A stretch of 64,000 nucleotides of DNA from positions 1-64,000 of the forward strand of contig JACPIQ010000008.1 in the NCBI GenBank assembly GCA_016188005.1, read 5' to 3'. The notes under the pieces were generated by a model. That model worked only from the letters and a program-made list of their open reading frames with translations, was not told where the DNA came from and made no database searches. The DNA is from Candidatus Rokuibacteriota bacterium. Its GTDB lineage: Bacteria; Methylomirabilota; Methylomirabilia; Rokubacteriales; CSP1-6. Both the position numbers and the translations under genes were made by a program. Positions 6,298 through 20,845 of the stretch are shown here, piece after piece. Numbering within the stretch: the first letter of the stretch is position 1; each line of letters opens with the position of its first letter.

Positions 6298-7136
6298 CCC
6301 GAACCACGTACACGGAGGACGCGGTGCGCGCCTGCGAATCCGTCCTCATCGAGTTGGTCCACGCGCTCGGCGAGTTCCGGGACCACATGGTCGTCGTCGG
6401 GGGCTGGGTCCCCAGCCTTCTCCTGCGAGGGGCGGCGGAGGTGCACGCCGGAACGCTCGACATCGACGTGGCGCTCGACTTCAGCCGGATGCCTGCCGAG
6501 ACGTACCAGACTCTCCTCGAGGTGCTGCTCCGCAGGGGATACCGCCAGGACGCCGGCCAGCCGTTTCGCTTCTTTCGTGACGTGCCGAACGTCGGCCGTC
6601 GACCGATCACGGTGGAGGTTGATCTCCTCGCGGGCGAGTACGGGGGCACGGGCGGCGGCCATCGGACCCAGCCCGTGCAGGATGCGCGTGCGCGAAAGGC
6701 GCGCGGTGCGGACCTGGTTTTCGACGCCCCGGTGCCGGTGGAGGTCGAAGGGGAGCTCCCTGGTGGCGGCCGCGATCGGGTGACCGTCCGGGTGGCCGGC
6801 GTCGTTCCCTGGCTCGTGATGAAGGGCATGGCCCTGGCTGAGCGGATCAAGGAGAAGGACGCCTACGACATCGTCTACTGCGTGCGGAACTACCCTGGCG
6901 GGATCCCGGGCCTCGTCCAGGTCTGCCGACCCCATCTGAGCCACGGGCTGGTTCGGGAGGGCTTCGGGAAGATCCGTCGTCACTTCCAATCCGTCGAGCA
7001 CATCGGGCCTCGCCTCGTCGCCGACTTCGAAGCGGTGACCGACCCCGAGGCCCGTGACCTCATCCGTCGTGCAGCCTACGAGGAGGTGCGGCAGTGGCTC
7101 GACGCCCTCGATGTACCGCCGTGGGTGGAACCGTAG
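6291..7136 (+). CDS. AbiEii-family nucleotidyltransferase toxin
   Basis: A 281-residue protein starting at ATG 6291, which overlaps the stop of the AbiEi-like gene. MVVVGGWVPSLLL followed by LDIDVALD gives the GG-W and D-x-D motif of minimal nucleotidyltransferases. A further Asp lies in VEVDLLAGEY, and MKGMALAERIKEKDAYDI is the conserved Lys-containing C-terminal helix of AbiEii/DUF1814-type toxins. Such toxins transfer nucleotides to tRNA or other targets and often give abortive phage defence. The frame is intact and of usual length. Confidence 0.85.
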   Translation: MVTRTTYTEDAVRACESVLIELVHALGEFRDHMVVVGGWVPSLLLRGAAEVHAGTLDIDVALDFSRMPAETYQTLLEVLLRRGYRQDAGQPFRFFRDVPNVGRRPITVEVDLLAGEYGGTGGGHRTQPVQDARARKARGADLVFDAPVPVEVEGELPGGGRDRVTVRVAGVVPWLVMKGMALAERIKEKDAYDIVYCVRNYPGGIPGLVQVCRPHLSHGLVREGFGKIRRHFQSVEHIGPRLVADFEAVTDPEARDLIRRAAYEEVRQWLDALDVPPWVEP

Positions 7137-7267
7137 CGTAGCGAAACGCAGGCGGGGGCAGGCCTCTCGAGGGCGGGGCTGACGGCGGCGACCCAGTTGG
7201 TGCGGGTCGGCGCGGATCGACTCGGTGCTGCGCCGCGCCGGAGCTGGCACGCGGGAGCCCTGTCGTG

Positions 7268-7390
7268 TCGTTCACCGACAACGTCATCGTGAACGGCCCA
7301 GGGCCCGCGTTCACCATGTTCGGCATCAACGTCCAGAATGCCTCTCAGGTCACGACCGCCGGCGGCGTCGAAGCCCGAACCGGATACTGA
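7268..7390 (+). pseudogene. C-terminal scrap of an unidentified beta-rich protein
   Basis: The plus strand reads VSFTDNVIVNGPGPAFTMFG, then INVQNASQVTTAGGV and stops at 7388-7390, a beta-strand-rich pattern typical of surface or beta-helix proteins. It has no start or upstream continuation and ends right at a RAYT-type end. The family is not recognisable. Confidence 0.35.
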
Positions 7391-7395
7391 TATTT

Positions 7396-7409
7396 CAAGA
7401 CCTGACCCC
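7396..7409 (-). repeat. Partial RAYT-type element end
   Basis: CAAGACCTGACCCC, the inner 14 bases of the right end seen at 57496-57515. It marks the junction between the preceding scrap and a TPR fragment. Confidence 0.6.
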
Positions 7410-7410
7410 C

Positions 7411-7740
7411 GAGGACACAGCACCGCCTCGGCCTGCGCGCGGGCCTCGTCCGGCTTTCCGCCCAGGAGATAGATGCTCGCCAGCTTGAGCCGAACCTCCG
7501 CGTTGTCCGGCTCCAGCTCCTGCGCCCGCAGGAGGAACCGGAAGGCCTGCCCCATCTCGCCGAGCTGGAAGTGGGCGAGCCCGAGCTGGCGGATGGCCGC
7601 GGCGTTGGTGACCTCGATGCGGAGCACGTTCCGGTACTCGATGATGGCATCCCGGTACTTCTCCGCCTTGACGTAGCGGTCGCCGCGCTCGAGATGGCGC
7701 GCCTTCCGGGCCTCGGGCGAGCGCGCGTACCCCGCCGCCA
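7411..7740 (-). pseudogene. N-terminal TPR fragment between RAYT-type ends
   Basis: The minus strand encodes ARKARHLERGDRYVKAEKY, then AIIEYRNVLRIE, AAIRQLGLAHFQLGEMGQA, ELEPDNAEVRLKLASIYLLG and ARAQAEAVL: three TPR units in one frame. This is the usual first part of PrsT-type TPR lipoproteins (cysteine-bearing signal peptide absent). It is bounded by repeat ends at 7396-7409 and 7774-7792; an ATG supplied by the repeat (MQDLT) could start an artificial frame at 7789. It probably was the 5' part of the gene whose middle and end survive at 4094-5048. Confidence 0.7.
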
Positions 7741-7773
7741 GCGCCCGGATCACCGCCACCAGCACCATCAGCA

Positions 7774-7915
7774 GGGTCAGGTCTTGCATTACGACATTGG
7801 TGACGGGGCGAGCGCATGGTCGCGCGCATCTATCTGCTCCGGTTCGCTCCCGGGATAGGGTCAGAGGGTGACCCCGTCCCTGAAGCGGGCGTGCTGGATT
7901 GCAAGACCTGACCCC
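7774..7915. mobile_element. 142-bp non-autonomous RAYT-type element
   Basis: Bounded by a left end (GGGTCAGGTCTTGCATTAC, 7774-7792) and a perfect right end (GGATTGCAAGACCTGACCCC, 7896-7915) in the same inverted arrangement as the 410-bp element at 57106-57515. The 100 bases between have no coding capacity. It looks like a deletion derivative or MITE mobilised in trans. Confidence 0.65.
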
Positions 7916-7959
7916 GGGGCAGTCACAGGCACCAGCAGCGGCATCGCCAAGTGTGCCGG

Positions 7960-8022
7960 GGCACGACTGCGGTGGGGCTGGCTGCCGTCCGCCGCTGGCG
8001 GAGGAGGGGGCGCGCAGCCTGA
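7960..8022 (+). pseudogene. PEP-CTERM C-terminal tail remnant
   Basis: Reads GTTAVGLAAVRRWRRRGRAA then TGA, the membrane helix and basic tail of the local PEP-CTERM proteins. The VPEP motif and all upstream coding sequence are absent. The flank after the stop resembles that after 11670. Confidence 0.65.
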
Positions 8023-8481
8023 TCAGCGCGCAGGAGGGGCGGGAGCCGGAGGGCGCTCAGCCTGGCTCTCGCCGATAACCCGGGAGGCGCAAGGCCGGCT
8101 GCGCAGTCAGCCTGTGAAGCGATGTGTATATACACGGCACGCGAGTGCACACAGGCTGATTGTTCGTTCACACCCCGCCCGCTCTTGCCGCCGGGAGCCG
8201 CCCGCTGGGGCCCCAGGGGTCGGCGGCCCAGGCGCCGCGTCCGAGTGGGGCCCTCATTTCAGGTCCACGCCACGCCCGGCGTCGGCCGTCCGCGGACCCG
8301 GCCGCCGGGGCCCCGCTAATGATGGCTTCTTTGAAGCGGCTGGCGGTGTCAAGTCGTCGTGTCTCTCCGTGTGTTTCGGGTCTCAGGTTCACTGCCGGGT
8401 AATGGGCAGTGGCCTCCAGCCTCGCGGGGTCCCCTCGGCCTCTTATTCGCGCTCATCCAGGGGGAGGACGCTGCTCCCCTG
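8023..8481. other. Non-coding stretch with a dispersed repeat
   Basis: Holds the 64-bp repeat at 8111-8174; nothing else is recognised. Open frames here lack family features. Confidence 0.45.
8111..8174. repeat. 64-bp dispersed repeat, copy 1
   Basis: Begins CCTGTGAAG and ends CGTTCACACC, an imperfect inverted repeat, with an inner GTGCACACAGGCTGAT. Copies of equal register lie at 11757-11820 and 12794-12852. Copies 1 and 2 follow PEP-CTERM tail remnants. Confidence 0.65.
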
Positions 8482-8751
8482 CTACTGGCGATAGATATCC
8501 TTCCGATGTCTCACGCGGTAGAGAATGACGTCCGCGCCCTTCACGTCGTACCGGACGCGGTACGGCCACACCTCAAGTCGCCACTGGCCGATACCCTGGC
8601 CCTTGAGCTTCTTGATCTTCGATGGGGGCCCAAACGCATTTTCATCGAGACGCTTCAGCGCGTCGAGGAGCTTCCGCTGGACCGCTACAGGGAGACCCTC
8701 CAGGTCCCTCCGGAAGCTCGGGGTGAGGTGAACTGTGAAGCGTGCCGGCAT
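8482..8751 (-). CDS. RelE/ParE-family toxin
   Basis: An 89-residue toxin with the RelE/ParE fold pattern. An N-terminal strand VHLTPSF is followed by RRDLEGLP, the helix VQRKLLDALKRLDEN, then KLKGQGIGQWRLEV and WPYRVRYDV, ending YRVRHRKDIYR. RelE members cleave mRNA at the ribosome and ParE members poison gyrase; sequence alone does not decide which. It follows the Phd-type antitoxin by 5 bases on the same strand, so one transcript is expected. Confidence 0.88.
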   Translation of the reverse strand: MPARFTVHLTPSFRRDLEGLPVAVQRKLLDALKRLDENAFGPPSKIKKLKGQGIGQWRLEVWPYRVRYDVKGADVILYRVRHRKDIYRQ

Positions 8752-8756
8752 CGAGG

Positions 8757-9047
8757 TCAGCCGGCTCGGCGAGTGAGGCGCTCCTTCAGGTAGTCCTTGA
8801 GGGTTACGCTCTTACCAGCACGATGCTGTTTCGAGGCGGCCTTTAGGCTCTTCTGGAAGGCGGGATCGAGCTCTTCAAGAATGTCATCGAAGTCCTGGGC
8901 GTTCAGGAGGACGGCGGTCGGCTTGCCGCTCTTGGTGATGATGAACCGGGACTTCTTCTGGCTCACTTCCTTGAGAAGGGAGCCAAGCTGGGTCCGAGCG
9001 ACATAGGCGGGAACAGCGGTGGTCATAGATCGCTTTGTTCTCGGCAT
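8757..9047 (-). CDS. Phd/YefM-family antitoxin
   Basis: A 96-residue antitoxin. Residues 8-60 carry the Phd/YefM pattern: VARTQLGSLLKEV, then RFIITKSGKPTAVLL and DFDDILEEL, followed by a charged C-terminal tail that would wrap the toxin. ATG 9047 has GAGGG about 8 bases upstream; an inner ATG at 9026 gives the more usual Phd start but lacks a ribosome site. It is first in the operon, with promoter and a 14-bp palindromic operator just upstream. Expected role: operon autorepressor and partner of the toxin at 8482. Confidence 0.88.
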   Translation of the reverse strand: MPRTKRSMTTAVPAYVARTQLGSLLKEVSQKKSRFIITKSGKPTAVLLNAQDFDDILEELDPAFQKSLKAASKQHRAGKSVTLKDYLKERLTRRAG

Positions 9048-9072
9048 CAGGTTCCCTCGGCGGCGGGAGAGA

Positions 9073-9124
9073 ATTGATTAATCAATGTGCGGTCATCTTA
9101 TGCCTCCACATTTCCGCGCGTCAA
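9073..9124 (-). promoter_or_regulatory. Promoter and palindromic operator of the Phd/ParE operon
   Basis: On the minus strand TTGACG (9124-9119), 18 bases, TAAGAT (9100-9095), followed by the perfect palindrome ATTGATTAATCAAT at 9073-9086, in the expected initial-transcribed region. An AT-rich island in GC-rich DNA, fitting a Phd-type autoregulatory site. Confidence 0.65.
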
Positions 9125-9200
9125 GTCCACGTATCGCGCCCTCTAGAATGTTACCGAGCGGGAATCATCGCGCCATTTGCGATGTTACTCTCCGCAGCCT

Positions 9201-9327
9201 ATGGAGACGACCATCGTGGGTGTGCGAGCCAAGCAAGAGTACGTGCAGGTGATCTATCACCGGTATCGGGGCGCCCGGCGCCCGGAGAAGCAGAAGATCT
9301 TGGACGAGTTCTGTCAGGTGACCGTCA
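9201..9327 (+). pseudogene. N-terminal fragment of an IS transposase
   Basis: Encodes KQEYVQVIYHRYRGARR, then EKQKILDEFCQVT, the start of a DDE-type transposase of the group whose members begin with a Y-x-x-RY...K-ILDEFC block. After about 9327 the sequence changes to an antisense TPR-gene fragment, so only the first 40 residues remain. No terminal repeats are visible. Confidence 0.5.
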
Positions 9328-9625
9328 ACAACATGGGCCGACCCCAGGAGCATCCAGGCGGGCACCGCCCGCGGCTGCCGCGCCGCCAGCGCCTCGAGCG
9401 CGTCGATGGCCGGCTGGAGCGCCCCCGCCTGGATGTCGAGCTCGGCCAGGAGCAGGACGGATTCCACCAGGTCCGGGTCCATGTTCCAGGCGCGGGGCTC
9501 GCTGTCCACCAAGACGTGGAGGCGGCAGATCTCCCGCTCGAAAGCCTCCAGGTCGGGGCCCACAGGGGCGCTCCAGTTGGTGCGCACGGCCTCGTGGACA
9601 AAGGCCAGCCCGCGCCGCCCATGTG
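9328..9625 (-). pseudogene. TPR gene fragment with divergent N-terminal part
   Basis: The minus strand reads AVRTNWSAPVGPDLEAFERE, RLHVLVDSEPRAWNMD, then LVESVLLLAELDIQAGALQ, LEALAARQPRAVPAWMLLG. The second part matches the TPR pseudogene at 4094-5048 closely. The first part is not matched there and may be the neighbouring region of the original gene. It is cut at 9328 where transposase DNA begins. Confidence 0.6.
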
Positions 9626-9948
9626 AGGCGGCGAGAGATGGATTTGGCGCCCGCAGCCACGGGGATAAGCGGCGGCTCTCCCGCGACCACGCGTCGCCCG
9701 GGGAGCCCCGGTGTATCCAGACCGCGGCATTGTCGCGAGCCTGCGCCCGGTGCTATCAGGGAGAGGGAGAAGGGCTAGGACTTGATCCTTGACAGCTCGG
9801 CCGCGCCTCGGTAACGTGAATGTCAATCAAGCCCCCGCCCGCGCGGTGTCTTCAGGAACGCAGGGTGGGTAATGCAACCCCAGGGGGTCCGAGCGCGGAC
9901 CCCCTGCACTGTTTTTTCGACCCCGACCGCCTCTGCGCCTTCTTTTCC
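9626..9948. other. Intergenic stretch, nothing recognised
   Basis: About 320 bases between the TPR fragment and the NYN-domain fragment. No gene, repeat or promoter is supported. Confidence 0.4.
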
Positions 9949-10218
9949 ATGGCTGACCCCACGGAGGGCTTGGTGGGGGTCGACATGCGCATCGGTGTGG
10001 ACATGCTCTCGCTCACGTCCAAGGGGCTTGTCGATGTGCCGGTTCTGGTGAGCGGCGATGGCGACCTGGCCGAGGCCATCAAGGCCGTGAAGGAGCTGGG
10101 CAGGCATGTTGAACTTGCCACGCTGCCCCGCGGCCGCTCCTGGGAGCTCGTGCAGGCGGCCGACGTGGTGCACGAACTGGACGAAGCCAAGATGAGGCCG
10201 TTCTTCAGGCGTGCGTAG
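9949..10218 (+). pseudogene. NYN/LabA-type PIN-like nuclease, C-terminal part
   Basis: Reads VDMRIGVDMLSL, then VPVLVSGDGDLAEAIKAV and LGRHVELATLP, the second half of the NYN (DUF88) domain with its conserved D-x-x and SGDGD acidic residues. The first half of the domain, including the first catalytic Asp, is absent; upstream DNA is unrelated. An ATG at 9949 would give 89 residues. NYN proteins are RNase-like; this one is probably inactive. Confidence 0.6.
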
Positions 10219-10288
10219 CAGGCAACGCCGCCTGGACGCTCGCCTGAACACATGGTGCCGGTGTGGCGCCCCTGGTGGGTGGCGCCTA

Positions 10289-10415
10289 GCAGGCTGCTGA
10301 AAAAGGCCCATCTGCTTCGTTGGCGCCCTCGGCCGCACGCTCAACGTACAGAAAGTACGCCTCGCGTGCGGCCGTCGGGCGCTGCCTCGCATCTGGGCCT
10401 TTTTGAGCAGCCCGC
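10289..10415. repeat. 127-bp imperfect palindrome
   Basis: The left arm starts GCAGGCTGCTGAAAAAGGCC and the right arm ends GGCCTTTTTGAGCAGCCCGC. The arms pair over about 60 bases with few mismatches around a small loop (CGTAC-AGAAA-GTACG). It has no coding potential and could form a cruciform or long hairpin, as REP/MITE-like elements do. Confidence 0.75.
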
Positions 10416-10463
10416 AGAGTTTTTCCGCATCCTGCTAGGGACGCGGCGGCATCCTCGATGAGC

Positions 10464-10523
10464 GGAACCTCATCGCCTTCATCCACGCCTCGAGCGCCGC
10501 GCTCAGCGGCACAACACAGGAGC
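10464..10523 (+). pseudogene. Fragment of a PEP-CTERM protein region
   Basis: Encodes NLIAFIHASSAALSGTTQE, which recurs as FMHASSAALSGTTQE at 11540-11580 just before a PEP-CTERM tail. The DNA of the two is nearly identical for about 45 bases. Only this scrap remains here. Confidence 0.5.
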
Positions 10524-10528
10524 CTCCG

Positions 10529-10973
10529 TCACTCGCCGGCCGGTGGTGCTGGGGGTTCGATCCCGCGAAGAGTGTCGAGAAACCGCGTCGGCCTCACGAC
10601 GCGTACTCCCCGGTAGGTCCCGATGTCGAGCAGGTCCCGGTCGCCAGTCACGACGAACCGGGCCCCTCCCTCCGCCGCGGCGGCAAGGAACTTGTCGTCC
10701 TCGGGATCCTGCTTGCTCTCGCCGTGACTGCCCCGGGCACGAGAATGCTCGCCCTCGCCATCGCTTGGAGCAGGTCGGCGACCTCGGCATCGGTCATCCG
10801 GCGGGCGCGCCGAAGCTTCTCGTAGGACAGAGCGCGGGCGATTTCCTTCAGAATCGGCGGCGAGAGCACCAGCTCGAAGGCGCCCCGGTGCCAGGCGCGG
10901 AGGATCCGGTCCTCATTCCGCCGCGGATGAGGGTTGCGGATACGATGACATTTGTGTCGAGGACCACCCTCAA
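10529..10973 (-). pseudogene. PIN-family toxin with two frameshifts
   Basis: Joined across frames the product reads LRVVLDTNVIVSATLIRGG, then EDRILRAWHRGAFELVLS, ILKEIARALSYEKLRR, then DPEDDKFLAAAAEGGA and FVVTGDRDLLDI: a complete PIN RNase with its four acidic positions. One frame break lies near 10925 (an A appears lost) and one near 10735. The TTG start at 10973 overlaps the antitoxin stop (TTGA). Either a recent pseudogene or two sequencing errors; the rest of the gene is well kept. Confidence 0.75.
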
Positions 10974-11257
10974 GCGCTTGCGCGCCGGGTGCCGAGGCGT
11001 GCGGCCTCGACGGCCTCGCGTACGGTCCGGCGGATGTCCCCGGGGCGCACCCCCCGGGTGCGGCCCTGGATCCGGTCCATGAGGGCGATGACCCGGTTGC
11101 GCAAGGCTTCCCTGTGGATGCCACGCGCGTCCGCATAGAAGCGGAGGGCTTCGCGGAGCAACTCGGACTTCGTCCGGCTTTCCTCGCGGGCGATCTGTTC
11201 CGCCCGCCTCAGGAGCGCGGGCGGAAGGGAGATCGTGATGGGCCTGCGCCGTGCCAT
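10970..11257 (-). CDS. Ribbon-helix-helix antitoxin (PIN toxin partner)
   Basis: A 95-residue protein. RPITISLPPALLRRAEQIAR at residues 5-24 and EESRTKSELLREALRFYA give a CopG/Arc-type ribbon-helix-helix DNA-binding domain. The remaining charged helix (REALRNRVIALMDRI) probably binds the toxin. A good ribosome site (GAGAGGAG) precedes ATG 11257. The stop overlaps the PIN toxin TTG start. Such RHH proteins repress their own operon. Confidence 0.85.
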   Translation of the reverse strand: MARRRPITISLPPALLRRAEQIAREESRTKSELLREALRFYADARGIHREALRNRVIALMDRIQGRTRGVRPGDIRRTVREAVEAARLGTRRASA

Positions 11258-11529
11258 GGGGAATCTCCTCTCGACACTACGTTCATGTGTGCATCATAAC
11301 GGGCGGGTCGTGGGTGTCAAGATGGAGGCGCATCTGGACGGGGTCTTGAACCCCTCGGGCCTGGGCTCTCGCCACGGGAGGTGGCAGGGGACGGCGCCTA
11401 TCCCTGGCCGGAGGGGCGTGGGCGCTTCGTTGCGGCACGCGAGGCCGCCGCGGGCGCGGGGGCCCGCAAGGGCCAGCCAGCGGGCGAGCGCCTAGGCGTG
11501 GGGCGGGGCCGGCGTGGCGGTGGCGTTGA
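11258..11529. other. Intergenic stretch upstream of the RHH antitoxin
   Basis: An AT-richer part at 11275-11305 (ATGTGTGCATCATAACG) probably holds the antitoxin promoter on the minus strand; no clean -35/-10 pair can be set. The remainder shows nothing recognisable. Confidence 0.4.
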
Positions 11530-11670
11530 CCTCCATGCCTTCATGCACGCCTCGAGCGCCGCGCTCAGCGGCACAACGCAGGAGCAGGCCGACGACGTTC
11601 CTGCTCTGGGGCACCACGGCGGTGGGGCTCGCCGCCGTGCGCCGCTGGCGGAAGAAGGCCCGCGCGGCGT
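11530..11670 (+). pseudogene. PEP-CTERM tail with the PEP motif deleted
   Basis: The frame AFMHASSAALSGTTQEQADD is followed, in another frame, by FLLWGTTAVGLAAVRRWRKK then ARAA and TGA. Compared with intact genes (GACGACGTTCC-CGAGCCGACC...CTGCTCTGGGG) about 16 bases containing the Pro-Glu-Pro codons are gone, which also shifts the frame. No start is visible upstream. Decay product of a PEP-CTERM gene. Confidence 0.6.
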
Positions 11671-11756
11671 GATCAGCACGTTGGGGCAGGAGCGGGCGGG
11701 CCCTCGGTCCCGGTCCCGCCAAGGGCCGGCTCGCGCGAGATTCACCTTGCTGCCCG

Positions 11757-11820
11757 CCTGTGAAGGGTGGTGCACAAACCCGGCGCGCGGCTGCGCATAG
11801 CCTGATCGTGCGTTCACACC
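11757..11820. repeat. 64-bp dispersed repeat, copy 2
   Basis: Same length and ends as 8111-8174 (CCTGTGAAG ... CGTTCACACC), with GCGCATAGCCTGATCG inside. It follows the PEP-CTERM tail remnant, as copy 1 does. Confidence 0.65.
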
Positions 11821-11899
11821 GCGGCCGCCGCCAGCCCCGAAGGCCGCCCGGCGCAGCCAGTTACGGCCCCCTGGGGTCGTGCGGAGCAGGAGGGCCCCC

Positions 11900-12355
11900 T
11901 CACCTCAGCTCGGCCAGCGCCTTCCTCGCCTCGTCCTTGCCCTTGAAGGCCGCCGGCGAGGCCGCCGCGAAGGCCAGGGCCTTCCGCGCCAGGTCCTTGT
12001 CCCCCGTCCTGGCCGCGGCCATCCCCAGGTGGTACTGCAGTTCCGCGTTGTCCGGCAGCCGCACCGCACCTTCCAGCAGCAGCGCCAGCGCCCGCTGGTA
12101 CACCCCGCGCGCCCCCTGCTTGGCCATCTGGGCCAGGGCGAGCGCCCAGTAGCCGATGTACAGCCACAGGCTCCGCCCCGACGGGTCCGTGTAGCGCCGC
12201 ATGAGGTAGTTGCTGCGCCCCTGCCACTCGCCGATCGCCGCGGGGAAGTCGTCGAAGGACTTGCGGATGGGCACCGCCTCCCCCTGCGACCGCAGGTGGA
12301 GGAGCCCGAGCGCGGCAAGGAGCAGCGCGCATGAGGCGCGCGCGGGGGTCCTCAC
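11900..12355 (-). CDS. EpsI N-terminus fused to TPR-protein C-terminus
   Basis: Open frame of 151 residues from GTG 12355. Residues 1-68 are EpsI-like (exosortase-associated): a hydrophobic start (LLLAALGLLHL), then VPIRKSFDDFPAAIGEWQG, and TDPSGRSLWLYIGYW. From ALALAQMAKQ onward it is the last 80 residues of the TPR protein (GVYQRALALLLEG, YHLGMAAARTGDKD, ALAELR). The EpsI catalytic remainder and most TPRs are missing. It overlaps the exosortase stop by 4 bases (GTGA), the normal exosortase-epsI arrangement. The fusion point is near 12150. Probably non-functional, but the frame is uninterrupted. Confidence 0.7.
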   Translation of the reverse strand: MRTPARASCALLLAALGLLHLRSQGEAVPIRKSFDDFPAAIGEWQGRSNYLMRRYTDPSGRSLWLYIGYWALALAQMAKQGARGVYQRALALLLEGAVRLPDNAELQYHLGMAAARTGDKDLARKALAFAAASPAAFKGKDEARKALAELR

Positions 12356-12797
12356 GCCCGCCTCCTCGCGAGCCGCCCCCGGGCCCAGCGCAGCAGCCCG
12401 TGGACGGCGAAGAGGCCGATGAAGGCGAAGACGAACACCGCCCAGCCCGAGAAAGGTGTGGAAGAAGCCCGAGGCGTACTCCACCCCGAACCACTGGCCG
12501 ATGAGCCCCGTCGAGATCACGCGCCCCGCATTGGCGAGGATGGTGATGGGGGCGGTGGAGGCCACGAAGAGCAGCATCATCCAGCCTCCCGGCAGCGCCA
12601 GGTAGGCCCAGGCCACGGCACCTCCGAGGAGCGAGATCAGCGAGCGGGTGCCGCTGCACGCCTCCGTCACTCCGAGGATGAGCTGGCTCAGGTGGATCAC
12701 GTTGCCGTCCAGGATGACGGGCACGTCCAGGAGATCGAGCGCCCAGGCCGCCTGCTGGGCGGCCAGCGACTGCAGCGGGAAGGTGACCGCGTAGAAG
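12352..12797 (-). pseudogene. Exosortase C-terminal half, truncated and frameshifted
   Basis: Encodes VPVILDGNVIHLS, EACSGTRSLISLL (catalytic Cys), ILANAGRVIS (Arg) and GFFHTF-SGW (His), the three catalytic blocks of exosortases. A run of three A instead of two at 12452-12454 shifts the frame after GFFHTF. The corrected frame ends HGLLRWARGRLARRRA. Upstream homology stops at 12797, where the dispersed repeat copy 3 begins, so the first half including YTHG is lost. The overlap with the intact-looking exosortase at 1-575 is almost identical. Confidence 0.8.
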
Positions 12798-12852
12798 CGG
12801 CGTGCACATACTCGCCGCCAAATTGCACATAGCCTGATCTGGCGTTCACACC
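12794..12852. repeat. 59-bp dispersed repeat, copy 3, at exosortase breakpoint
   Basis: GTGCACATACTCGCC ... GCACATAGCCTGATC ... GCGTTCACACC aligns without gaps to the last 59 bases of copies 1 and 2. Exosortase homology ends inside its first four bases, so the repeat marks a recombination or deletion point. Confidence 0.65.
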
Positions 12853-13254
12853 CTCGGCGGGCCCCATGCCCGGCTGGTGGTCACCTCGAGACGCCCGGTG
12901 GGGACAGGTGACCGCGTTGGCCATCGAGGAAGCATGGCAGTCGGAATTGCGCGCCGGCGCAGGCATGACGGTCGGCGCGCGAATGTTTCGCGTGTAACAA
13001 GCCGTGCACCTGCCTGCAATCCCCCCGTGCGGCCATGTAACGCGTTGCATGCACACTCGCTCAAGGCTGATCCAAGCGACGGATATTCCAGTGGCAGATT
13101 GCCCAGCGCCACGCTGGTACAGGCCTTGCTCCACACCATTCTGGCATTTCGCCCTGCAACCCCGCAGGGGGAGGCTGGTGAAGCGAGCCATGATCTTCGC
13201 GGCAATGCTGCTCCCGGTGTGATCGACGCACCGTAGCAAGAGAGGAGACCGGCG
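12853..13254. other. Upstream region of the first tandem PEP-CTERM gene
   Basis: No gene is supported. From about 13005 to 13140 the sequence (CACCTGCCTGCAATC, GCGTTGCATGC, CTGATCCAAGCGAC, TGGTAC...CTTGCTC) is matched by 14135-14270 upstream of the next PEP-CTERM gene, so this is a shared regulatory leader. Confidence 0.55.
13115..13130 (+). promoter_or_regulatory. Sigma-54-like promoter of PEP-CTERM gene
   Basis: TGGTAC, 5 bases, TTGCT: the GG-to-GC distance is the canonical 10 bases. It lies about 125 bases before ATG 13255 inside a leader conserved with the next PEP-CTERM gene. Confidence 0.55.
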
Positions 13255-14037
13255 ATGAATAGGCGAGTCTTGATGGCCGTGCTAGCTGCGGTGCTGATCG
13301 CGGGCTCGGCCGGGTATCTCGAGGCGGCCTCTTTCTCGTTCACCGCGTCCGACGTCAAGACCGCCATGGCTGCGGCTGGCGCCCCGCTGAACGACGCCAC
13401 CAACCAGTGGGGGCTGTGGGCGGTTCGCGCCATGCCCGTGGTCGGGGGCACGGGGGTGTACACGATCGACAGTGGAGCGACCACACAGACGGGCTGGGGA
13501 GTGGACGCACCCAACGGAGCGTTCGGCGCGGCTCCGTACACACCCTCAAACCACGTCTGGTTCTGGGACGCATGCGGGGCAGAGGATCCCGCCTGCACGG
13601 CGAATCCCCTCTACATGATCATGGACAAGCCCGCGAATACGTTCGAGAGCTACAAGTTTGATCCGCCGGGCACGTTCACCGGCACCTGCACCTCCTCTGC
13701 CGAGACGGGCTGCAACCTCGTCACGGCCGTGGACGACGGCTCGCTTTTCACCGTCAACTTCACGCTAGGTCCGGGCGGCACGTGGGATGGAGTCTGGCAG
13801 TTCGTGGTGGACGGCAGCAAGTACACGGCGGGTAGCTCTAGCACCCCAGGCGTCTGGGTGGCCGACTTCTTCGGGGGGTACGACTTTGGCCTGCCCGGGG
13901 GGCCCGGAGGCGGTCTGACGGGCAACATGGCCGAGGGCTACGTCGTCACCCCCGAGCCGACCACGCTGCTGCTGTGGGGCACCAGCGCGCTGGGGCTGGC
14001 TGTCGTTCGTCGCTGGCGCAACCGCCGCGCCGTCTGA
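13255..14037 (+). CDS. PEP-CTERM sorting-domain protein
   Basis: Exported protein of 260 residues. The signal peptide RRVLMAVLAAVLIAGSAGYL is followed by EAAS; the body is Gly/Asn/Thr-rich with Trp-containing beta segments and two Cys-bearing stretches (DACGAEDPAC, GTCTSSAETGC) that could form disulfides. No domain family is recognised. The C-terminus TPEPTTLLLWG, a hydrophobic helix and RRWRNRRAV is the exosortase signal. Ribosome site GAGGAGACC precedes ATG 13255. It forms a tandem pair with 14333-15142: flanks, signal peptide and tail are alike but the centres are unrelated. A sigma-54-like promoter lies upstream. Confidence 0.88.
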   Translation: MNRRVLMAVLAAVLIAGSAGYLEAASFSFTASDVKTAMAAAGAPLNDATNQWGLWAVRAMPVVGGTGVYTIDSGATTQTGWGVDAPNGAFGAAPYTPSNHVWFWDACGAEDPACTANPLYMIMDKPANTFESYKFDPPGTFTGTCTSSAETGCNLVTAVDDGSLFTVNFTLGPGGTWDGVWQFVVDGSKYTAGSSSTPGVWVADFFGGYDFGLPGGPGGGLTGNMAEGYVVTPEPTTLLLWGTSALGLAVVRRWRNRRAV

Positions 14038-14120
14038 TCGGCGCGCCGGGGCGGGGGCGGGCGGGTGTTCGCGCTCGCTCCTGCCGAAGGGAGGCGATTC
14101 GGTTGGCTGCATCGTAGCTT
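14038..14120 (+). repeat. Downstream flank shared by the tandem PEP-CTERM genes, copy 1
   Basis: GATCGGCGCGCCGGGGCGGG ... GTGTTCGCGCTCGCTCC ... GCGATTCGGTTG recurs after the second PEP-CTERM gene (15143-15220) with few changes. The stretch is GC-rich and partly self-complementary; it may help terminate transcription, though no U-run is seen. Confidence 0.55.
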
Positions 14121-14255
14121 CGTCTGACGTGTCAATGCACCTCTCTGCACCTGCCCGCAAGCTCCCCGTGCGACTACGCAGCGCGTTGCATGCGCGCTCG
14201 CTCGGGGCTGATTCAAGTGACCGAGATTCCATCGGCAAGTTGACCAGTCCAGCGG

Positions 14256-14270
14256 TGGTACGTGCTTGCT
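14256..14270 (+). promoter_or_regulatory. Sigma-54-like element, one base short
   Basis: TGGTAC, 4 bases, TTGCT. It aligns exactly with the site at 13115-13130 but the spacer is one base shorter, giving GG-N9-GC instead of the usual N10. It may be weak or non-functional despite the conserved setting. Confidence 0.4.
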
Positions 14271-14332
14271 CTGGGTGATCGCAGCATCGAATCTCGCGGC
14301 CCAAGAGGGAGAAGACGATGGAGAGACCGGCA

Positions 14333-15142
14333 ATGACTAGGCGAGTCTTGGTGGGCGTAGTAGCTGCCGTGTTGCTCGGCGTGTCCAGCGGCTACTCGCA
14401 CGCTGCGACGGTCGTGGTGGATCCCCTCAACCCGAATGGATGGGCTTTCCAGGTAACATCGGCCGATGGGATCGGGGCCTTCGTCGGGGGTCCCGGCACT
14501 CCGCCACTGGGATCCGGCAGTGCGCGGTTGTTCACGGGGACACACGGCGACGACTCCGCGCAGATCCGGACCCCCACCTACAACGGCGTGTCCTTGAGCA
14601 GCCTGACGCAGCTGGCCTACAGCACCCATGTCACGAGCTGGAATGGGCAGCAGGCGCCGTACATCATCCTCAACGTTGACCTCGACGCCAACGGCAGCGT
14701 GGATGATCTTCTGTTCTTCGAGCCCGCGTATCAGAATCCCGTGGACGGGAACCCCGCTCTGCCGAATCAAGGCACGGCTTCAACAGGAGTCTGGCAGACG
14801 TGGGACGCCTTGTCGGGCGGCTGGTGGTCCTTGAACAGCATCGCGGGGGCCACCCCGGGCACGGGTGTCAAGTCACTCGGCGATTACCTGGCGGTAGAGT
14901 CCGGAGCCATGCTCTCGACCACCGCATTGGGCGCGGTGCGCTTGGTGACAGGGTTCGCGTCGGCGCCGGATGTCTTCGACGGCAACGTGGACAAGTTCGT
15001 CATCGCCGTCAGCGGGAGCGAGACGATCTACGACTTCGAGGCCGCAGCCCCGGTGCCCGAGCCGACCACGCTGCTGCTCTGGGGCACGACGGCGGTGGGG
15101 CTTGCCGCCGTACGCCGCTGGCGCAACCGCCGCGCCGTCTGA
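14333..15142 (+). CDS. PEP-CTERM sorting-domain protein
   Basis: Exported protein of about 269 residues. Signal peptide RRVLVGVVAAVLLGVSSGY then SHAA. The body is beta-rich; DLDANGSVDDLLFFEP near residue 120 is a Ca-binding-like acidic loop, and the rest (GGWWSLNSIAG, FDGNVDKFVIAVSG) resembles uncharacterised PEP-CTERM ectodomains. It ends VPEPTTLLLWG, hydrophobic helix, RRWRNRRAV. ATG 14333 is chosen because GAGAGACCGGC-ATG aligns with the start of the sister gene; ATG 14318, five codons upstream, is the alternative. Expected to be anchored or released at the surface by exosortase. Confidence 0.88.
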   Translation: MTRRVLVGVVAAVLLGVSSGYSHAATVVVDPLNPNGWAFQVTSADGIGAFVGGPGTPPLGSGSARLFTGTHGDDSAQIRTPTYNGVSLSSLTQLAYSTHVTSWNGQQAPYIILNVDLDANGSVDDLLFFEPAYQNPVDGNPALPNQGTASTGVWQTWDALSGGWWSLNSIAGATPGTGVKSLGDYLAVESGAMLSTTALGAVRLVTGFASAPDVFDGNVDKFVIAVSGSETIYDFEAAAPVPEPTTLLLWGTTAVGLAAVRRWRNRRAV

Positions 15143-15589
15143 TCGGCACGCCGGGGCGGGGGCGGGCGGGTGTTCGCGCTCGCTCCCGCCGAGGGCGGCG
15201 ATTCGGTTGTGCGCATCGTAGCCCCGTGTGGGGGCGCCCCCTGTCACTCGTCGAGGGCACTGGCGCCGTGACCGGCAGCGGTTCGGTGACGGTCGAAGTC
15301 GGCGTGGCGCGTCTGATTCCCATGAATTGGTGATCTCGCGCGGGCTTGGGCTCTTCGGCTAGCGCACCGACCACGGCCGCATCCCTGTCGTCCGCGCTGG
15401 CCGCAGTCATTCCGAGGTGGTGCTGCCAGATCGAGGCGTCGGCAATCAGGGCAACGGCTCTTCCCGGCTGGTTACTGGGTCTCCTGCCTTCGGCGATGAC
15501 GAGGGGTGTCATGTCCAAGGCGAACACCGAATGGGGGCGCCCGGCGAGGCCCCGGCTGCCGACAGGGTGCCGAGCGGGACCGCTGCACC
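15143..15589. other. Downstream flank repeat copy 2 and TPR-tail relic
   Basis: 15143-15220 repeats the flank after the first tandem PEP-CTERM gene. On the minus strand around 15360-15460 the reading ASIWQHHLGMTAASADDRDAA resembles the TPR-protein tail (LQYHLGMAAARTGDKDLA) and is a worn relic of it. No intact gene is supported. Confidence 0.45.
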
Positions 15590-16423
15590 TCAGAAGAACC
15601 GGGCTAACGGAGACTCATGCCCGTCCTTGGCCGCAACGTACACGGATTCGGTCGACACGCCCGCACGCTCCAGCACGCGCCTCGCCCGTTCCAGGCCAAA
15701 TCCGTATCCCGAGGCTGCGGGGCCTCGCAACACGCGCAGGACCCGGAACCCGGCGTCGGCGAACGTCCCGAGCCACCGCCGGCGGCTGTACGCGTAGAGC
15801 TCGACGAGGTTCGATTCGTACGCCCCGTGGGGCGTAGGCCAGAAGTGGCGTTCGGGGCGCCGCGACGCTTTCGGATTGTTCTCGATGGCGACGCCCCCGC
15901 GCCTCGCCGGGTCGGGCGCCGACGCGGGCCGCCGGCGCGCCGGCGGCAGCCCCAGCGTCGTCAGCAGACGCCGGCTGATCCTCACGGCGAGGTCGGGGTA
16001 GAAGAACACGAGCTGCGAGAGCTTCCACACCGGATTCGGGACCACGTGGATCGCGAGGCCCTCGCGCTTGAGCACTCGGTGCATGCCCCGGAGCGCGGCG
16101 TCGGGGCGCGGCAGGTGCTCGAGCAGATTCGACGAGTACACGAGGTCGAAGGTGGCGGCGGCGAAGACCTCGTCCACCCGCTCGGCGTCGCAAACGGCGA
16201 AGGCCACGGACGCCGGGTGGTCGCCGGCGGCGAGGATCGACTCGCTGAAATCGGTGCAGACGAGGTCCTTGACGTAGCTCGACAAGAGCCGGCTCTGAAA
16301 TCCGTCGCCCGCCCCCAGCTCGAGACCCTTGCCGAAGGCTGCCTCTGGACACCGGGCGAAGATCAGCTCGATCTCGCGAGACCGGATCCGGTGCAGCCAG
16401 TCGCCCCAGGAGGCCGCCGTCAC
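15590..16423 (-). CDS. Class I SAM-dependent methyltransferase, last gene of the EPS block
   Basis: A 277-residue protein. GLELGAGDGFQSRLL (about residues 33-47) is the SAM-binding motif I, FAVCDAERVDE motif II and FDLVYSSNLLEHL the motif before the Methyltransf_11 helix; RVLKREGLAIHVVPNP follows. It lies 6 bases after the beta-helix gene in the minus-strand operon. The substrate is probably a sugar or lipid-linked intermediate, inferred from context only. The C-terminal third is family-specific and includes ERHFWPTPHGAYESN. Confidence 0.85.
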   Translation of the reverse strand: MTAASWGDWLHRIRSREIELIFARCPEAAFGKGLELGAGDGFQSRLLSSYVKDLVCTDFSESILAAGDHPASVAFAVCDAERVDEVFAAATFDLVYSSNLLEHLPRPDAALRGMHRVLKREGLAIHVVPNPVWKLSQLVFFYPDLAVRISRRLLTTLGLPPARRRPASAPDPARRGGVAIENNPKASRRPERHFWPTPHGAYESNLVELYAYSRRRWLGTFADAGFRVLRVLRGPAASGYGFGLERARRVLERAGVSTESVYVAAKDGHESPLARFF

Positions 16424-16429
16424 GGTCGC

Positions 16430-18199
16430 CTACCTACCCGTCGGCTCGACGCCCAGCGCGCCGACGAACGCCCCGGAGCCGGGCGCGCCCGGAACCTCGA
16501 TGGCGCGACCGAGGGCCGGACTGTCCGGCCTCAGGTGGAAGTTTCCCCCGGCCTCGTCCACGAAGCCCGGGTCCGCTTTGAAGTTCCCGGTCGCCTCCCC
16601 GTATCGGCGCTCGAAGTCACGGAGGGTGTAGCTGAGCCACCCGCCGCGTAGCTCGGCGGATCGCGTTCGTCCGACGGCAAGCTCCCCGGTTCTGCCAGGC
16701 TCGCGCAGGACGAGGTTGTTCGTGATCCGGTTGCCGTTGAGACTGCCCTCCGGCCAGAAGTACTCGGCCGGGGTGTGGTACTGATCGATGAGCCACGTGT
16801 ACGAGCCCCCGGCGGGGCCCGGGGGGGCGCCCCCATTCCGGTAGAAGATGTTGTTGGCGATCAGGGTCTCGGTGACCCGTGCCCCGCGCTTCTCGAACAC
16901 GTAGAGGCCCGCGCCGCCGTTGCCGTAGAAGGTGTTGTTGTAGACCTGGTTACCGCGTGGCTCCTGCTTCACGTTCCCGTAGGGATAGGCGCCGATCTCG
17001 ATGCCGCTTCCGCTGTTATTCGCGATGACGTTGTAGCGGATGACGCTCGTGCTTCCCTGCGTCTGGATTCCCGGCCGCACTGCCGGCCCACCGCCGGGGC
17101 AGGGACCGCGGCTACCGTCAGGGAGCCGGCAATTGACCAGCCCCGCCGTCCCGGAGTCGCGGATTACGTTGTGCTCCACGAGCGCGCGCTCGACCTTCCA
17201 GCCCGTCATGCCGAAGCCGGTCGCCCACGAATTGGCGATGACGTTGTGGGCGACCACGGTGTCGACTGTCTCGCCGTCGATGTTCGGGGTCCCGAGGAGG
17301 ATGACGGCCGAGTGACCGCCGTCCGCGACGTGGTTGTGAACGACGCGGTTGCGCCTCCCGACCGTGATCTGCACGCCTTCGCCGGCGTTCCGGGAGACGT
17401 CTCCGCAGCGCGCGATGTGGCTCCGCTCGAGCACGCTGTCGTCGACGTGGAGGAACAGGACGCAGCCCTTGGCGTTGTCCGTGACGTCGAGATTCCTGAG
17501 CGCCACGTGATGCACCCCGGAGAGCTGGAGCCCGATGCCGGCGTGGCTCACTCCGAGCCCCTCGATCACCACGTAGGCCGCGCCACGTTCGAGGACGATC
17601 CCCGCGCCGTACCTCCCGCCCGTGATCCGGGCGGCCCCGTCCTGCACCGCCCGGATCGTGATCGGCCTGTCCGCGGTGCCGCCCCGGAGGATGCGGAGCC
17701 ACTGGTCGGCAAAGGTGCCTCGGAGCACAGCCGTGTCACCGGGCTGGAGCGCTCGTGTCATGCGGTCGAGCGTCTTCCACGGCCGATTCGGGGTTCCCGG
17801 GTCGCTGTCGTGCCCCTTCTCGGCATCGACGTGGAGCGTGCGGGCCGCCGGCGGACGCTCGACCATGACCTGGGCCGGGGCGGACGTGACAGTAGTGCCG
17901 GAGCCGAACCGCGCCTCCGCGGACAGCAGGTGCCATCCCGGGGACGCGAGCGCGGTGCTCCAGGGCGCCTCGTACGCCGGCCCCGTAGTGGCGGGCGCCT
18001 CGATCGGATAGCCATCGAGGAGGTACTGGACGGCCACGGGGCGGTCCGGACCGGTCACGGCCACTGCGAGGGCGATCGTTCCACTGACCGCGTGCGAGGC
18101 CAGCGTGATCTGTACCGTCGCCGGCGGGGCCGCGCCTGGGGTGGTCGCGAACGCCAGCCCGAGCATCACGAATCCGAGGAGCGCACGAGCGAGGCTCAT
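16430..18199 (-). CDS. Secreted right-handed beta-helix protein
   Basis: A 589-residue exported protein: signal peptide MSLARALLGFVMLGLAFATT, an Ig-like segment (residues about 25-115, VTGPDRPVAVQYLLDG), then a parallel beta-helix. The start RTLHVDAEKGHDSDPGTPNR PWKTLDR is the classical opening of such proteins. It is followed by rungs with NxIxxN patterns (NVIRDS, NVIANN, NNTFYGNG, NNIFYRNG) to residue 540. The fold is shared by pectate lyases, alginate lyases and mannuronan epimerases; no catalytic set can be assigned. ATG 18199 overlaps the GNAT stop by 4 bases. Plausible role: trimming or modifying the exopolysaccharide outside the cytoplasm. Confidence 0.85.
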   Translation of the reverse strand: MSLARALLGFVMLGLAFATTPGAAPPATVQITLASHAVSGTIALAVAVTGPDRPVAVQYLLDGYPIEAPATTGPAYEAPWSTALASPGWHLLSAEARFGSGTTVTSAPAQVMVERPPAARTLHVDAEKGHDSDPGTPNRPWKTLDRMTRALQPGDTAVLRGTFADQWLRILRGGTADRPITIRAVQDGAARITGGRYGAGIVLERGAAYVVIEGLGVSHAGIGLQLSGVHHVALRNLDVTDNAKGCVLFLHVDDSVLERSHIARCGDVSRNAGEGVQITVGRRNRVVHNHVADGGHSAVILLGTPNIDGETVDTVVAHNVIANSWATGFGMTGWKVERALVEHNVIRDSGTAGLVNCRLPDGSRGPCPGGGPAVRPGIQTQGSTSVIRYNVIANNSGSGIEIGAYPYGNVKQEPRGNQVYNNTFYGNGGAGLYVFEKRGARVTETLIANNIFYRNGGAPPGPAGGSYTWLIDQYHTPAEYFWPEGSLNGNRITNNLVLREPGRTGELAVGRTRSAELRGGWLSYTLRDFERRYGEATGNFKADPGFVDEAGGNFHLRPDSPALGRAIEVPGAPGSGAFVGALGVEPTGR

Positions 18200-18843
18200 G
18201 ACTCACCCTCCCGCCTGATCACGTACACCCCCATGAACGTTCCGTCCGGCTGGCGCTCCATGCGCCAGCCGTCGCGGTTGGCGGCTCTGGCCCACGCGCC
18301 CTTCTCCGGCTGCATCTGGCTGTAGAGCATAGTGTAGCGCTCAGCCTTCGCCGTCTCGACCATCGCCGCTTTGAGGCGGCTTCCGATCCCGAGTCCCCTC
18401 AGATCGGGGCGCGTCCCCGTCGTCTGCATGTACACTGCGCGCTCCGGCATGGACGCCGACAGGAGCGGCATGTTCGTCGTGTGGCGCGCGCGCGCGAACA
18501 GCCTTCCCGCGATCGCGCGGATCGTGTGACCGCCGAGGTGCCTGAGGAAGAGCCACGGATGGCGCCGGGCGAGCGCCAGGAAGAACCGCGACCGGTCGGT
18601 GAGCGCGAACGTGTAGCCGACCGGTCTTCCGTCGTGGAAGCCCAAGAGTGTGATCGTGGCAATCCCCGCCGCGCACTGCCTTGCCAGCGCCCGGTGGAAG
18701 CGCGTCAGCTCGGCCGCCGCCACGGCGAGCGGAGGCACCACGTCGAACAGCCCGGCCAGCGCGTCCTGGTTCTGGGCGCTCGCACGCTCGATCTCGAGAA
18801 GCATCGCCGCTTCCCGCGCTGGCGGTGCCGTCCGCTCCTCCAT
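18196..18843 (-). CDS. GNAT-family N-acetyltransferase
   Basis: A 215-residue protein with GNAT motif A near residue 148: MQTTGTRPDLRGLGIGSRL, the acetyl-CoA pyrophosphate loop (R/Q-x-x-G-x-G). An earlier strand, ITLLGFHDGRPVGYTFAL, and a late MLYSQMQPEKGAWARAANRD complete the fold. ATG 18843 has GGAGGG upstream; longer readings run over the preceding gene. Position between a deacetylase-like gene and the beta-helix gene suggests acetylation of an amino sugar or other EPS precursor; this is inference. Confidence 0.85.
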   Translation of the reverse strand: MEERTAPPAREAAMLLEIERASAQNQDALAGLFDVVPPLAVAAAELTRFHRALARQCAAGIATITLLGFHDGRPVGYTFALTDRSRFFLALARRHPWLFLRHLGGHTIRAIAGRLFARARHTTNMPLLSASMPERAVYMQTTGTRPDLRGLGIGSRLKAAMVETAKAERYTMLYSQMQPEKGAWARAANRDGWRMERQPDGTFMGVYVIRREGES

Positions 18844-18857
18844 GGCGGTCCCTCCTC

Positions 18858-19796
18858 TCAGCTCCCCGCGCCGCGGCGAGCGGCGCTGAACAGCCATCGC
18901 AGCTCGACACGACGCCGCTCCGCGGCGGGCAGCGGCCCGCCCAGGCCCCCGGCACGCAGGTGGTCGAGCAGCGTCGCCACGGGGACGAACCAGCCGTCGC
19001 GAGCGGCGAGCGCCTCGAGCAGGGCGCGCGTGTCGCTCCTCACCTCGCCGTGCTCGACGAACCCGGCGGCGACGTGGGTCGCGACGATCGAGATGCCGCC
19101 CGCACGGACGAGCCGCTCCTGCCGCTCCGGCCTGAGGAGCGCGTTGAACGCGGCGACGCTCGGGGCATGACACGCCGAGAACCAGAAGTTGACGAAGGGC
19201 GTCGCGGCGTCCGCGTAGAGGGGACGGGGATGCACGGACAGCAGGTCGGTTGCCGGGAACGTGAACCCGCGGACGTAGTCGATGTGCTTGTGGCCCAGGT
19301 CACCCCAGAAGTACGGTGAGCGGGGCACGTGCCCCTCGCTCGACTGGCCGTTCCGCACGGCGCGATACCGGTACAGCAGTCCGAGGAGGCGCGACCGGAA
19401 CCGGCCGTCGAGCCAGTAGAGGTTGTCGCGATTGTCGCCGTGGTTTGCGTGGGTGCGCGGGGGGTGGCCGAACGTCCCCGCGAAGAGCTCGATTCCACGC
19501 AGCGTCCGGGACCGCGTCGCGCTCATCATGGACACGCCGTGCGACGCGATCTCGAAGCCGTGTGCCTGGAGCTCGCGCGCGAAGTCGCGGTACTCCGGGT
19601 CCTCGAGGGTGCTGGAGCCGACCCAGTTCGGGTGCACGTCCTCGGCCCCGAGGCTCCACACCGTCTTCGTCGTCCGCATCCCGAGGTGCTCGAGCAGGCG
19701 GTAGAACGGCCGCGTGTTCGCCACCGTGGCGTTGTCGCAGTCGTCGAACACCGTGAAGGCGAAGCGCTTGCCGCCCGGGAACCGCCGCCGGTTCAT
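18858..19796 (-). CDS. Polysaccharide deacetylase-like (NodB-fold) protein
   Basis: A 312-residue protein. FTVFDDCDNATVANTRPFY near residues 12-30 supplies the paired Asp of the NodB start (normally TFDD), and FEIASHGVSMMSA carries the S/T-H-x-x motif (H for metal). Later THANHGDNRDNLYW and VATHVAAGF give further His positions. It belongs to the deacetylase-like group found beside FemAB proteins in PEP-CTERM/EPS loci. ATG 19796 overlaps the FemAB stop (ATGA); a 45-residue upstream extension in the same frame overlaps that gene and is unlikely. Role: N- or O-deacetylation of polymer, inferred. Confidence 0.8.
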   Translation of the reverse strand: MNRRRFPGGKRFAFTVFDDCDNATVANTRPFYRLLEHLGMRTTKTVWSLGAEDVHPNWVGSSTLEDPEYRDFARELQAHGFEIASHGVSMMSATRSRTLRGIELFAGTFGHPPRTHANHGDNRDNLYWLDGRFRSRLLGLLYRYRAVRNGQSSEGHVPRSPYFWGDLGHKHIDYVRGFTFPATDLLSVHPRPLYADAATPFVNFWFSACHAPSVAAFNALLRPERQERLVRAGGISIVATHVAAGFVEHGEVRSDTRALLEALAARDGWFVPVATLLDHLRAGGLGGPLPAAERRRVELRWLFSAARRGAGS

Positions 19797-20845
19797 GGCT
19801 GGCCCGGGGCCGCCGCGTGCCGGCCGGCCAGCGTCAGGCGAAGCCGTCCCAACGCGCGTTGCCGAGCACTCATGTAGTGCTTGAGAGCCAGGCGCCCGAC
19901 GCGGGCGAGTGGCGAGAGCGCCTTGAACCACCGCTCGGTGACGACCGGCATGCCGCCGAACTTCGGCTTGAAGCTACCGCCGCCGCACATGTTGTACTGG
20001 GGGATACCCCGCTCGAGGGCGACGCGCATAGCCGTCCAGTGGAGCAGCTCGTTCGGGTAGAGCGAGTAATCGCGCGTCCAGGCTGCGCCACCCCAGAAGT
20101 AGATCGCCCGCTCGTCGTGGGGGAAGAGACCCGTCGCGACGAGCCGCTCGCCGTGACGGACCCGCAGGGCGAGCAGCTTGCCCTCCGGCATCAGGCAGTC
20201 CCAGAGCGCCTGGACCCGTTCCCGCCCGTAGGTCGGCACGCGGCCCTGGCGGAGGAACACGTCTTGGAGCTGCGCATAGTACTCCCCCACGAACGCCGGG
20301 TCGGTCGTGGGCTCCACGCACAGCCCGTTCTTCGTGCCCCGACGGACGCGGTTGCGGCATTCGCTCTTGAGCCGCCCCCACATCGCCTCCTCGTCGTCGA
20401 TGGGCACGAGGAACGTCATGTCGGCGTCGAGCTCGTAGCCGGCCGCCCGCATCGCTGCGGCCGGCAGGGCCGGGTTGGACAGCTCGAAGTAATCGACCCC
20501 GAGGTCCCGGCAGCAGCGGTCGAGCGCCGCGAGCAGGCTCTCGACGTCAACGTCGTCCACCAGGGGCCCCATGAAGTTGGTTGTCCAGCCCTGGAGCGGG
20601 CTCCCGAGCAGGCGGAAGGGCCCCTTGCGGACCTCGGCCGCGCAGAGGTAGCCGAGGGCGCTACCGTCGTCGCCCAGGAGCTTCCGGGCGCGCACCGTTG
20701 CGCGCTGGGACTGCTCGAGGAAGCGGAGCCAGCAGCGCTCGTGGAAGAGGTACTTGCTGCGATAGCCGCGGGCGACAGCGTCCCAGTCTGGCGTCGCGAG
20801 CGGCGCGACGGCCTGCTGCGCGTACACGCGGCCGTTGCCATTCAC
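19793..20845 (-). CDS. FemAB-like GNAT acyltransferase (PEP-CTERM/XrtA type)
   Basis: About 350 residues with two GNAT-like halves. The first contains LLGDDGSALGYLCAAEVRKG; the second contains ECRNRVRRGTKNGLCVE, FLRQGRVPTYGRERV and the typical FemAB end GIPQYNMCGGGSFKPKFGG. The family adds an aminoacyl or acyl group to cell-envelope substrates and one subgroup is restricted to exosortase/EPS loci. GTG 20845 is preferred: it overlaps the previous stop (GTGA) and follows GGAGAG; GTG 20875 is the longer alternative. Both neighbours overlap by 4 bases. Confidence 0.85.
   Translation of the reverse strand: MNGNGRVYAQQAVAPLATPDWDAVARGYRSKYLFHERCWLRFLEQSQRATVRARKLLGDDGSALGYLCAAEVRKGPFRLLGSPLQGWTTNFMGPLVDDVDVESLLAALDRCCRDLGVDYFELSNPALPAAAMRAAGYELDADMTFLVPIDDEEAMWGRLKSECRNRVRRGTKNGLCVEPTTDPAFVGEYYAQLQDVFLRQGRVPTYGRERVQALWDCLMPEGKLLALRVRHGERLVATGLFPHDERAIYFWGGAAWTRDYSLYPNELLHWTAMRVALERGIPQYNMCGGGSFKPKFGGMPVVTERWFKALSPLARVGRLALKHYMSARQRALGRLRLTLAGRHAAAPGQP

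Follow-up and report, generated by a model that had tools for sequence, protein, structure and literature searches.

How can two neighbouring genes have the same DNA around their starts and beyond their stops, and yet encode proteins whose central parts appear to have nothing in common? The question is raised by genes A and B, a pair of PEP-CTERM genes in the 64,000-nucleotide stretch analysed here (the window), which is the opening 64 kb of contig C8 (350 kb long) in the 5.37-Mb draft genome of a Candidatus Rokuibacteriota bacterium. The features on which our analysis draws are listed in Table 1.

Table 1. Positions in the window of genes A and B, their shared and variable parts, and related features of the same locus.
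Feature	Position	Strand	Details
Gene A, PEP-CTERM protein	13255-14037	+	260 aa; TIGR02595 17.5 bits
Gene B, PEP-CTERM protein	14318-15142	+	274 aa (about 269-270 aa from ATG 14333); TIGR02595 17.7 bits
Upstream non-coding 5' constant blocks	13005-13131 (A), 14146-14271 (B)	+	~127 bp, 77%, E about 1e-19
Start/signal-peptide blocks	13245-13300 (A), 14323-14378 (B)	+	56 bp, 84%
Centre of A	about 13324-13947	+	no homologue found
Centre of B	about 14402-15049	+	part of a wider domain family
3' constant blocks (sorting tail and 3' flank)	13951-14126 (A), 15056-15230 (B)	+	176 bp, 88.6%, E 8e-59
G+C-rich hairpin after the stop	14050-14085 (A), 15155-15190 (B)	+	14-bp stem; z -1.9 and -2.5
Exosortase gene, N-terminal part, apparently intact, running on into contig C63	1-600	-	PF09721 C8:6-473, C63:2-427
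Gene C, PEP-CTERM protein	983-1918	-	same tail type as A and B; shares its tail and 3' flank (227 nt) with the C63 lectin gene
Relic, tail and 3' flank	7958-8075	+	72-75% to the A and B 3' blocks
Relic, tail and 3' flank without a gene	11588-11726	+	79% to the B 3' block
Truncated exosortase/EpsI copy joined to the end of a TPR (PrsT-like) gene	11900-12800	-	PF09721 positions 121-237 only; DUF3485 and TPR matches

The A and B units lie head to tail, 19 bp apart (14127-14145), and the start of B that is equivalent to the start of A, and is the probable one, is the ATG at 14333 and not 14318. A sequence-only reading of this DNA had described a common leader of about 135 bp, similar signal peptides, identical RRWRNRRAV tails and about 80 bp of common downstream flank, and most of that description was borne out. 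The block that includes the signal peptides also takes in the ribosome-binding region and the start (56 bp at 84% identity), both proteins end in VRRWRNRRAV, and the 3' block, at 88.6% identity, runs from the PEP codons to 88-89 nt beyond both stops. The leader stood only in part: a 127-bp upstream block at 77% identity is present, but it is not contiguous with the start block, from which it is separated by poorly aligning DNA (113 nt in A, 51 nt in B).

These shared ends are far above chance. Among the 31 other long open reading frames of the window (465 pairs), a comparison of the last 72 nt and the 250 nt beyond the stop of each frame gave only two matches, of 24 and 41 nt. The 5' constant block occurs within the genome before A and B only. 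Neither gene was found in the two sister genomes searched, both of them draft assemblies, and constant-end matches beyond the genus were short (about 40-47 bits, with 10-14 candidates scored per genome). The two ends of the pair also differ in how alike they are, with 147/181 identical positions in the 5' blocks versus 155/172 in the 3' blocks (Fisher p 0.02), and 100/125 versus 81/87 in the upstream and downstream non-coding DNA (p 0.01). Constraint, later conversion or different ages could each account for this gap; a single event of a single age may be too simple an explanation for the ends of A and B, and the greater likeness of the 3' blocks may reflect constraint or later conversion.

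The sequence-only reading had also noted that the centres, which are alike in length (650 and 677 bp), bear no obvious likeness to each other, and sensitive alignment did not turn them into divergent homologues. The best BLASTP match between them has an E value of 1.5, their alignment score was equalled by 393 of 500 shuffles (local) and 257 of 500 (global), their DNA score by 16 of 200 codon shuffles, and hhalign gave a probability of 0.2% for A against a four-sequence profile of B. The homology along the whole unit that marks simple tandem duplicates was not found in A/B, where the centres are at chance by sequence. When the whole A and B proteins were compared with 60 relatives, every match outside the two themselves lay at residue 196 or later, and these matches therefore represent the tail and the stretch just before it.

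No credible relative of the A centre was found in 95 genomes of the phylum, nor any homologue of it among viral contigs, and plasmid records held no homologue of either centre. Two other matches to the A centre (E 0.003 and 0.006; 62-64 residues) each contained an internal stop and were attributed to chance, as were B-centre matches in genomes G087 (34 residues) and G056 (internal stop). The B centre has two more convincing homologues. The first (L082), from G074, a genome of the same taxonomic family, is a secreted protein of 408 aa that lacks a PEP tail; it matches B at 25% identity over residues 32-213 (E 2e-11). The other (L131), the only match in a scan of genome contigs, is a 601-aa Patescibacteria protein with 40% identity over 62 residues (E 2e-7), which seems by eye to hold a second, weaker copy (22%). 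Its C-terminus we take to be LPxTG-like, and Pfam recognised no domain in that stretch. Together, these homologues show that the B centre is found on proteins with other C-termini and belongs to a separate domain family, which A does not match. Structure models (pLDDT 35 for A alone and 34 for B with two L131 stretches) were too poor for fold comparison; the two centres, at chance level in every alignment, appear to be unrelated, although they may still have a common fold.

Both proteins carry putative signal peptides, with a basic start and a hydrophobic stretch recognised by eye, and both pass the 16-bit cut-off of TIGR02595, while their scores against Pfam PF07589 (17.4 for A and 18.3 for B) fall under its cut-off of 20.7. 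Exosortase genes (PF09721) were detected at C68:166495-167250 and across the join of contigs C63 and C8. The first 141 bp of C8 and the first 141 bp of C63 are exact reverse complements of each other, and both sides of the join lie on one contig (C190) in the sister genome G002, where the exosortase counterpart scores 209.4 versus 208 for XrtA. The overlap, the split exosortase model and the G002 contig all indicate that C63 and C8 most likely form a single locus, with the contigs split inside the exosortase gene. Besides an array of PEP-CTERM genes and remnants to which A/B belong, this locus contains the exosortase/EpsI gene and two PrsT-type TPR genes on C63, which score 390.8 and 462.1 bits against TIGR02917 (cut-off 312.2). 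We read A and B as two exported PEP-CTERM proteins encoded beside an exosortase, with a putative function at the cell surface.

A survey of the genome revealed constant ends on diverse centres in further genes. TIGR02595 gave 35 matches (E <= 10), of which the 25 above the cut-off were used and the 10 below it left out. Common DNA reaching at least 80 nt beyond both stops was found in four of the 300 pairs: A/B, gene C with a C-type lectin gene (C63:6629-7192; PF00059, 45 bits), L019/L027 (80 nt), and L014/L015, the last being a gene end duplicated at 98% identity. The other three pairs have a common 3' end on unlike centres, with no centre homology at E <= 0.01 (the A/B signal peptides excepted), and in each the common DNA starts no more than 3 nt from the (V)PEP codons. 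Gene C and the lectin gene, the latter with the local LLLWGT tail, have 319 bp in common at 80.6% identity, extending about 227 nt beyond the stop. Both ends are in common in A/B only; the remaining pairs have the 3' end alone in common. Since all PEP tails are alike, the common non-coding flank is the stronger argument. The reverse discordance was also observed: the lectin pair L020/L026 (C63 and C67), with centres 48% identical, and the pair L024/L031, at 38%, have no tail or flank DNA in common at E <= 1e-3. The latter case is the weaker of the two, because L031 (C63:17088-17651) looks 5'-damaged.

The lectin gene also allowed a comparison between species. Of 56 genomes searched for its centre, four gave a match at E <= 1e-8: the genome itself, G002, G007 and G028. 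In G002, the lectin centre is 67% identical to that of the C63 lectin, and the DNA is 74% identical over 305 bp, but this DNA match stops 82 nt before the tail. The two lectin tails have 13/28 residues in common, as opposed to 24/29 between the tails of the C63 lectin and gene C, and the G002 lectin gene does not match gene C at the DNA level; gene C keeps its own tail and flank in G002. The same lectin centre is thus joined to different tails, implying that ectodomain and tail have different histories.

Tails and centres are therefore discordant both within the genome and between two species, and the tails follow the locus. LLLWGT tails were found at 8/9 loci of C63 and C8:1-16 kb versus 0/16 elsewhere (Fisher p 8e-6); the eight include two recent duplicates. 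This distribution would be consistent with each exosortase (C63/C8 and C68) taking its own tail type, with LLLWGT as the probable match of the local enzyme. More tentatively, the exosortase locus might act as an ectodomain-capture platform with the tail and 3' flank as the recurrent junction, at which any incoming secreted domain would gain the tail of the local exosortase. The tail would then characterise the locus and not the protein, and every exosortase would have recruited a surface repertoire for itself; we regard this wider reading as possible but doubtful.

The surroundings of A/B are littered with duplicated fragments. The relic at 11588 is 97% identical over 310 bp to G002:C26:6237-6545 and only 79% identical to B, which marks these sequences as old paralogues and argues against ongoing homogenisation. 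The chimeric remnant at 11900-12800 combines the C-terminal half of an exosortase, the start of EpsI and the end of a TPR gene; it includes a truncated third exosortase copy (PF09721 match at C8:12443-12793) and is 82% identical to C63:25-736. Further repeats of gene pieces, at 96% and 93%, were found in the first 15.3 kb of the window and C63.

The most probable reading, in our judgement, is that A and B are a tandem duplicate in which one centre has been replaced, by slow ectopic recombination and duplication within this fragment-littered exosortase locus, with the tail DNA as the junction. One ancestral unit, consisting of promoter-side DNA, signal peptide, tail and 3' flank, would have been duplicated in tandem to give A and B, and in one copy an unrelated domain would have taken the place of the ectodomain. 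Throughout the locus, the tail and the DNA downstream of it would be inherited apart from the ectodomain, the route being ectopic recombination and segmental duplication with conserved tail DNA as the junction. With signal peptide and tail retained, every product could still be exported and then processed by the local exosortase, so that a new ectodomain could work at once as a surface protein. We infer the order of these events and the crossover within the tail DNA, as well as the replacement in A/B itself, for which the searches gave no gene with matching DNA that could have supplied either centre.

The head-to-tail arrangement and the similar lengths of the centres would also suit a plain tandem duplication, in which the centres are homologues whose likeness was erased by diversifying selection, constraint having preserved the promoter, signal peptide, tail and 3' hairpin. 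PEP-CTERM repertoires change rapidly according to Haft 2006 (PMC1569441), and a hairpin after the stop could preserve the 3' flank. However, centres at chance level are difficult to reconcile with upstream non-coding DNA that has kept 77% identity, and the recognisable homologues of the B centre elsewhere, the dissimilarity of A to the B profile and the plain discordance of tails and centres at other loci all make this explanation unlikely. The unequal identities of the 5' and 3' blocks, together with the sharing of only the 3' end by gene C and the lectin gene, are what would be expected if unrelated neighbouring genes had gained the same ends by gene conversion, at the 3' end and perhaps separately at the 5' end. 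For A/B, this would require two separate conversions, one of them through non-coding upstream DNA, and the age of the tail relics outside the pair speaks against strong ongoing homogenisation; we consider such a capture of ends quite unlikely.

The sequence-only reading had proposed cassette exchange between constant ends as a means of varying surface proteins. The part of this proposal that holds is the occurrence of the same ends on different centres, for which simple duplication is insufficient; no sign of a programmed exchange system was seen. The anatomy alone, with its constant ends and variable centres, would fit a phase-variable system that exchanges centres, but no site-specific recombinase was found among 20 proteins scanned in part of the locus, the inverted repeats listed were nine in number, all short (14-22 nt) and imperfect, no spare or silent centres were seen, and the junction sequences vary by pair. 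A programmed system is very improbable on these grounds, and replacement of one centre in a tandem duplicate is the reading that we retain.

The hairpins after the A and B stops may mark the ends of transcripts. They fold well in both genes (Table 1), but no T run accompanies them, their covariation was not above that of shuffles (six sequences), and the 3' flanks of gene C and the lectin gene fold worse than shuffles. Neither a sigma-70 nor a terminator-like site was found at 12800-15400, and Rfam gave nothing in positions 1-20000 of the window. For PepA of Aquincola (PMC9850573), an RpoN-dependent promoter was mapped and a stem-loop terminator was proposed after pepA; as in that case, a PEP-CTERM gene lies here near a TPR (prsT) gene and is followed by a putative stem-loop. 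Unlike Aquincola pepA (PMC9850573), a single gene with a mapped RpoN promoter, the present genes show by eye no clean sigma-54 site.

How one sorting tail reaches many domains is seldom visible; in this locus the inherited piece can be recognised by the non-coding DNA that follows the gene, making the joins datable and traceable and the pairing of a tail type with a particular exosortase testable. LPxTG surface proteins likewise carry a constant C-terminal sorting signal on shuffled, diverse ectodomains; the likeness lies in this constant tail and in the diversity of what it carries, the sorting enzyme and motif being other than those of PEP-CTERM proteins. The system described by Haft 2006 (PMC1569441) has the same parts as this genome: exosortases, PrsT-type TPR proteins, and target proteins with a PEP tail and, putatively in the present case, a signal peptide. 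That paper presents the PEP-CTERM tail as a modular domain of proteins without homology outside it, with tails more alike within a species and with conserved upstream DNA in proteobacteria. Modularity is treated there at the protein level, whereas in the present locus the non-coding DNA past the stop moves with the tail, and the tail type follows the locus, not the ectodomain. Modular PEP-CTERM tails have thus been known since Haft 2006, and what our comparisons would add is reassortment at the DNA level that is bound to a locus; the locus-bound tail is, in our view, the most interesting part of the finding. Judging by titles and abstract openings, none of the papers returned by a search of an open-access collection concerns PEP-CTERM tail exchange.

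Several other repeats and genes were observed in the region. A duplicated gene end at C63:9012-9304 and 10934-11218 (95%) leaves tail-only frames of 75 and 71 aa. Genes of toxin-antitoxin type occur among the fragments (DUF433/DUF5615, AbiEi, ParE with Phd/YefM, NYN and CopG-type RHH; 3427-4007, 5230-6297, 8482-9047, 9820-10218 and 10970-11257), and a group II intron reverse transcriptase/maturase adjoins the counterpart of gene C in G002 (L073:495-1841). An element of about 30-40 bp is repeated in numerous spacers between genes, among them those at 7884-7919 of the window, at C63:1111-1178 and 1961-2002, and on the G002 contigs C26 and C190, and positions 54047-54101 and 57184-57517 of the window match repeats of G002 C26. 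Towards the far end of the window, a 234-bp repeat (60653-60884 and 62943-63174; 88%) lies near PEP-CTERM genes at 61069 and 62492.
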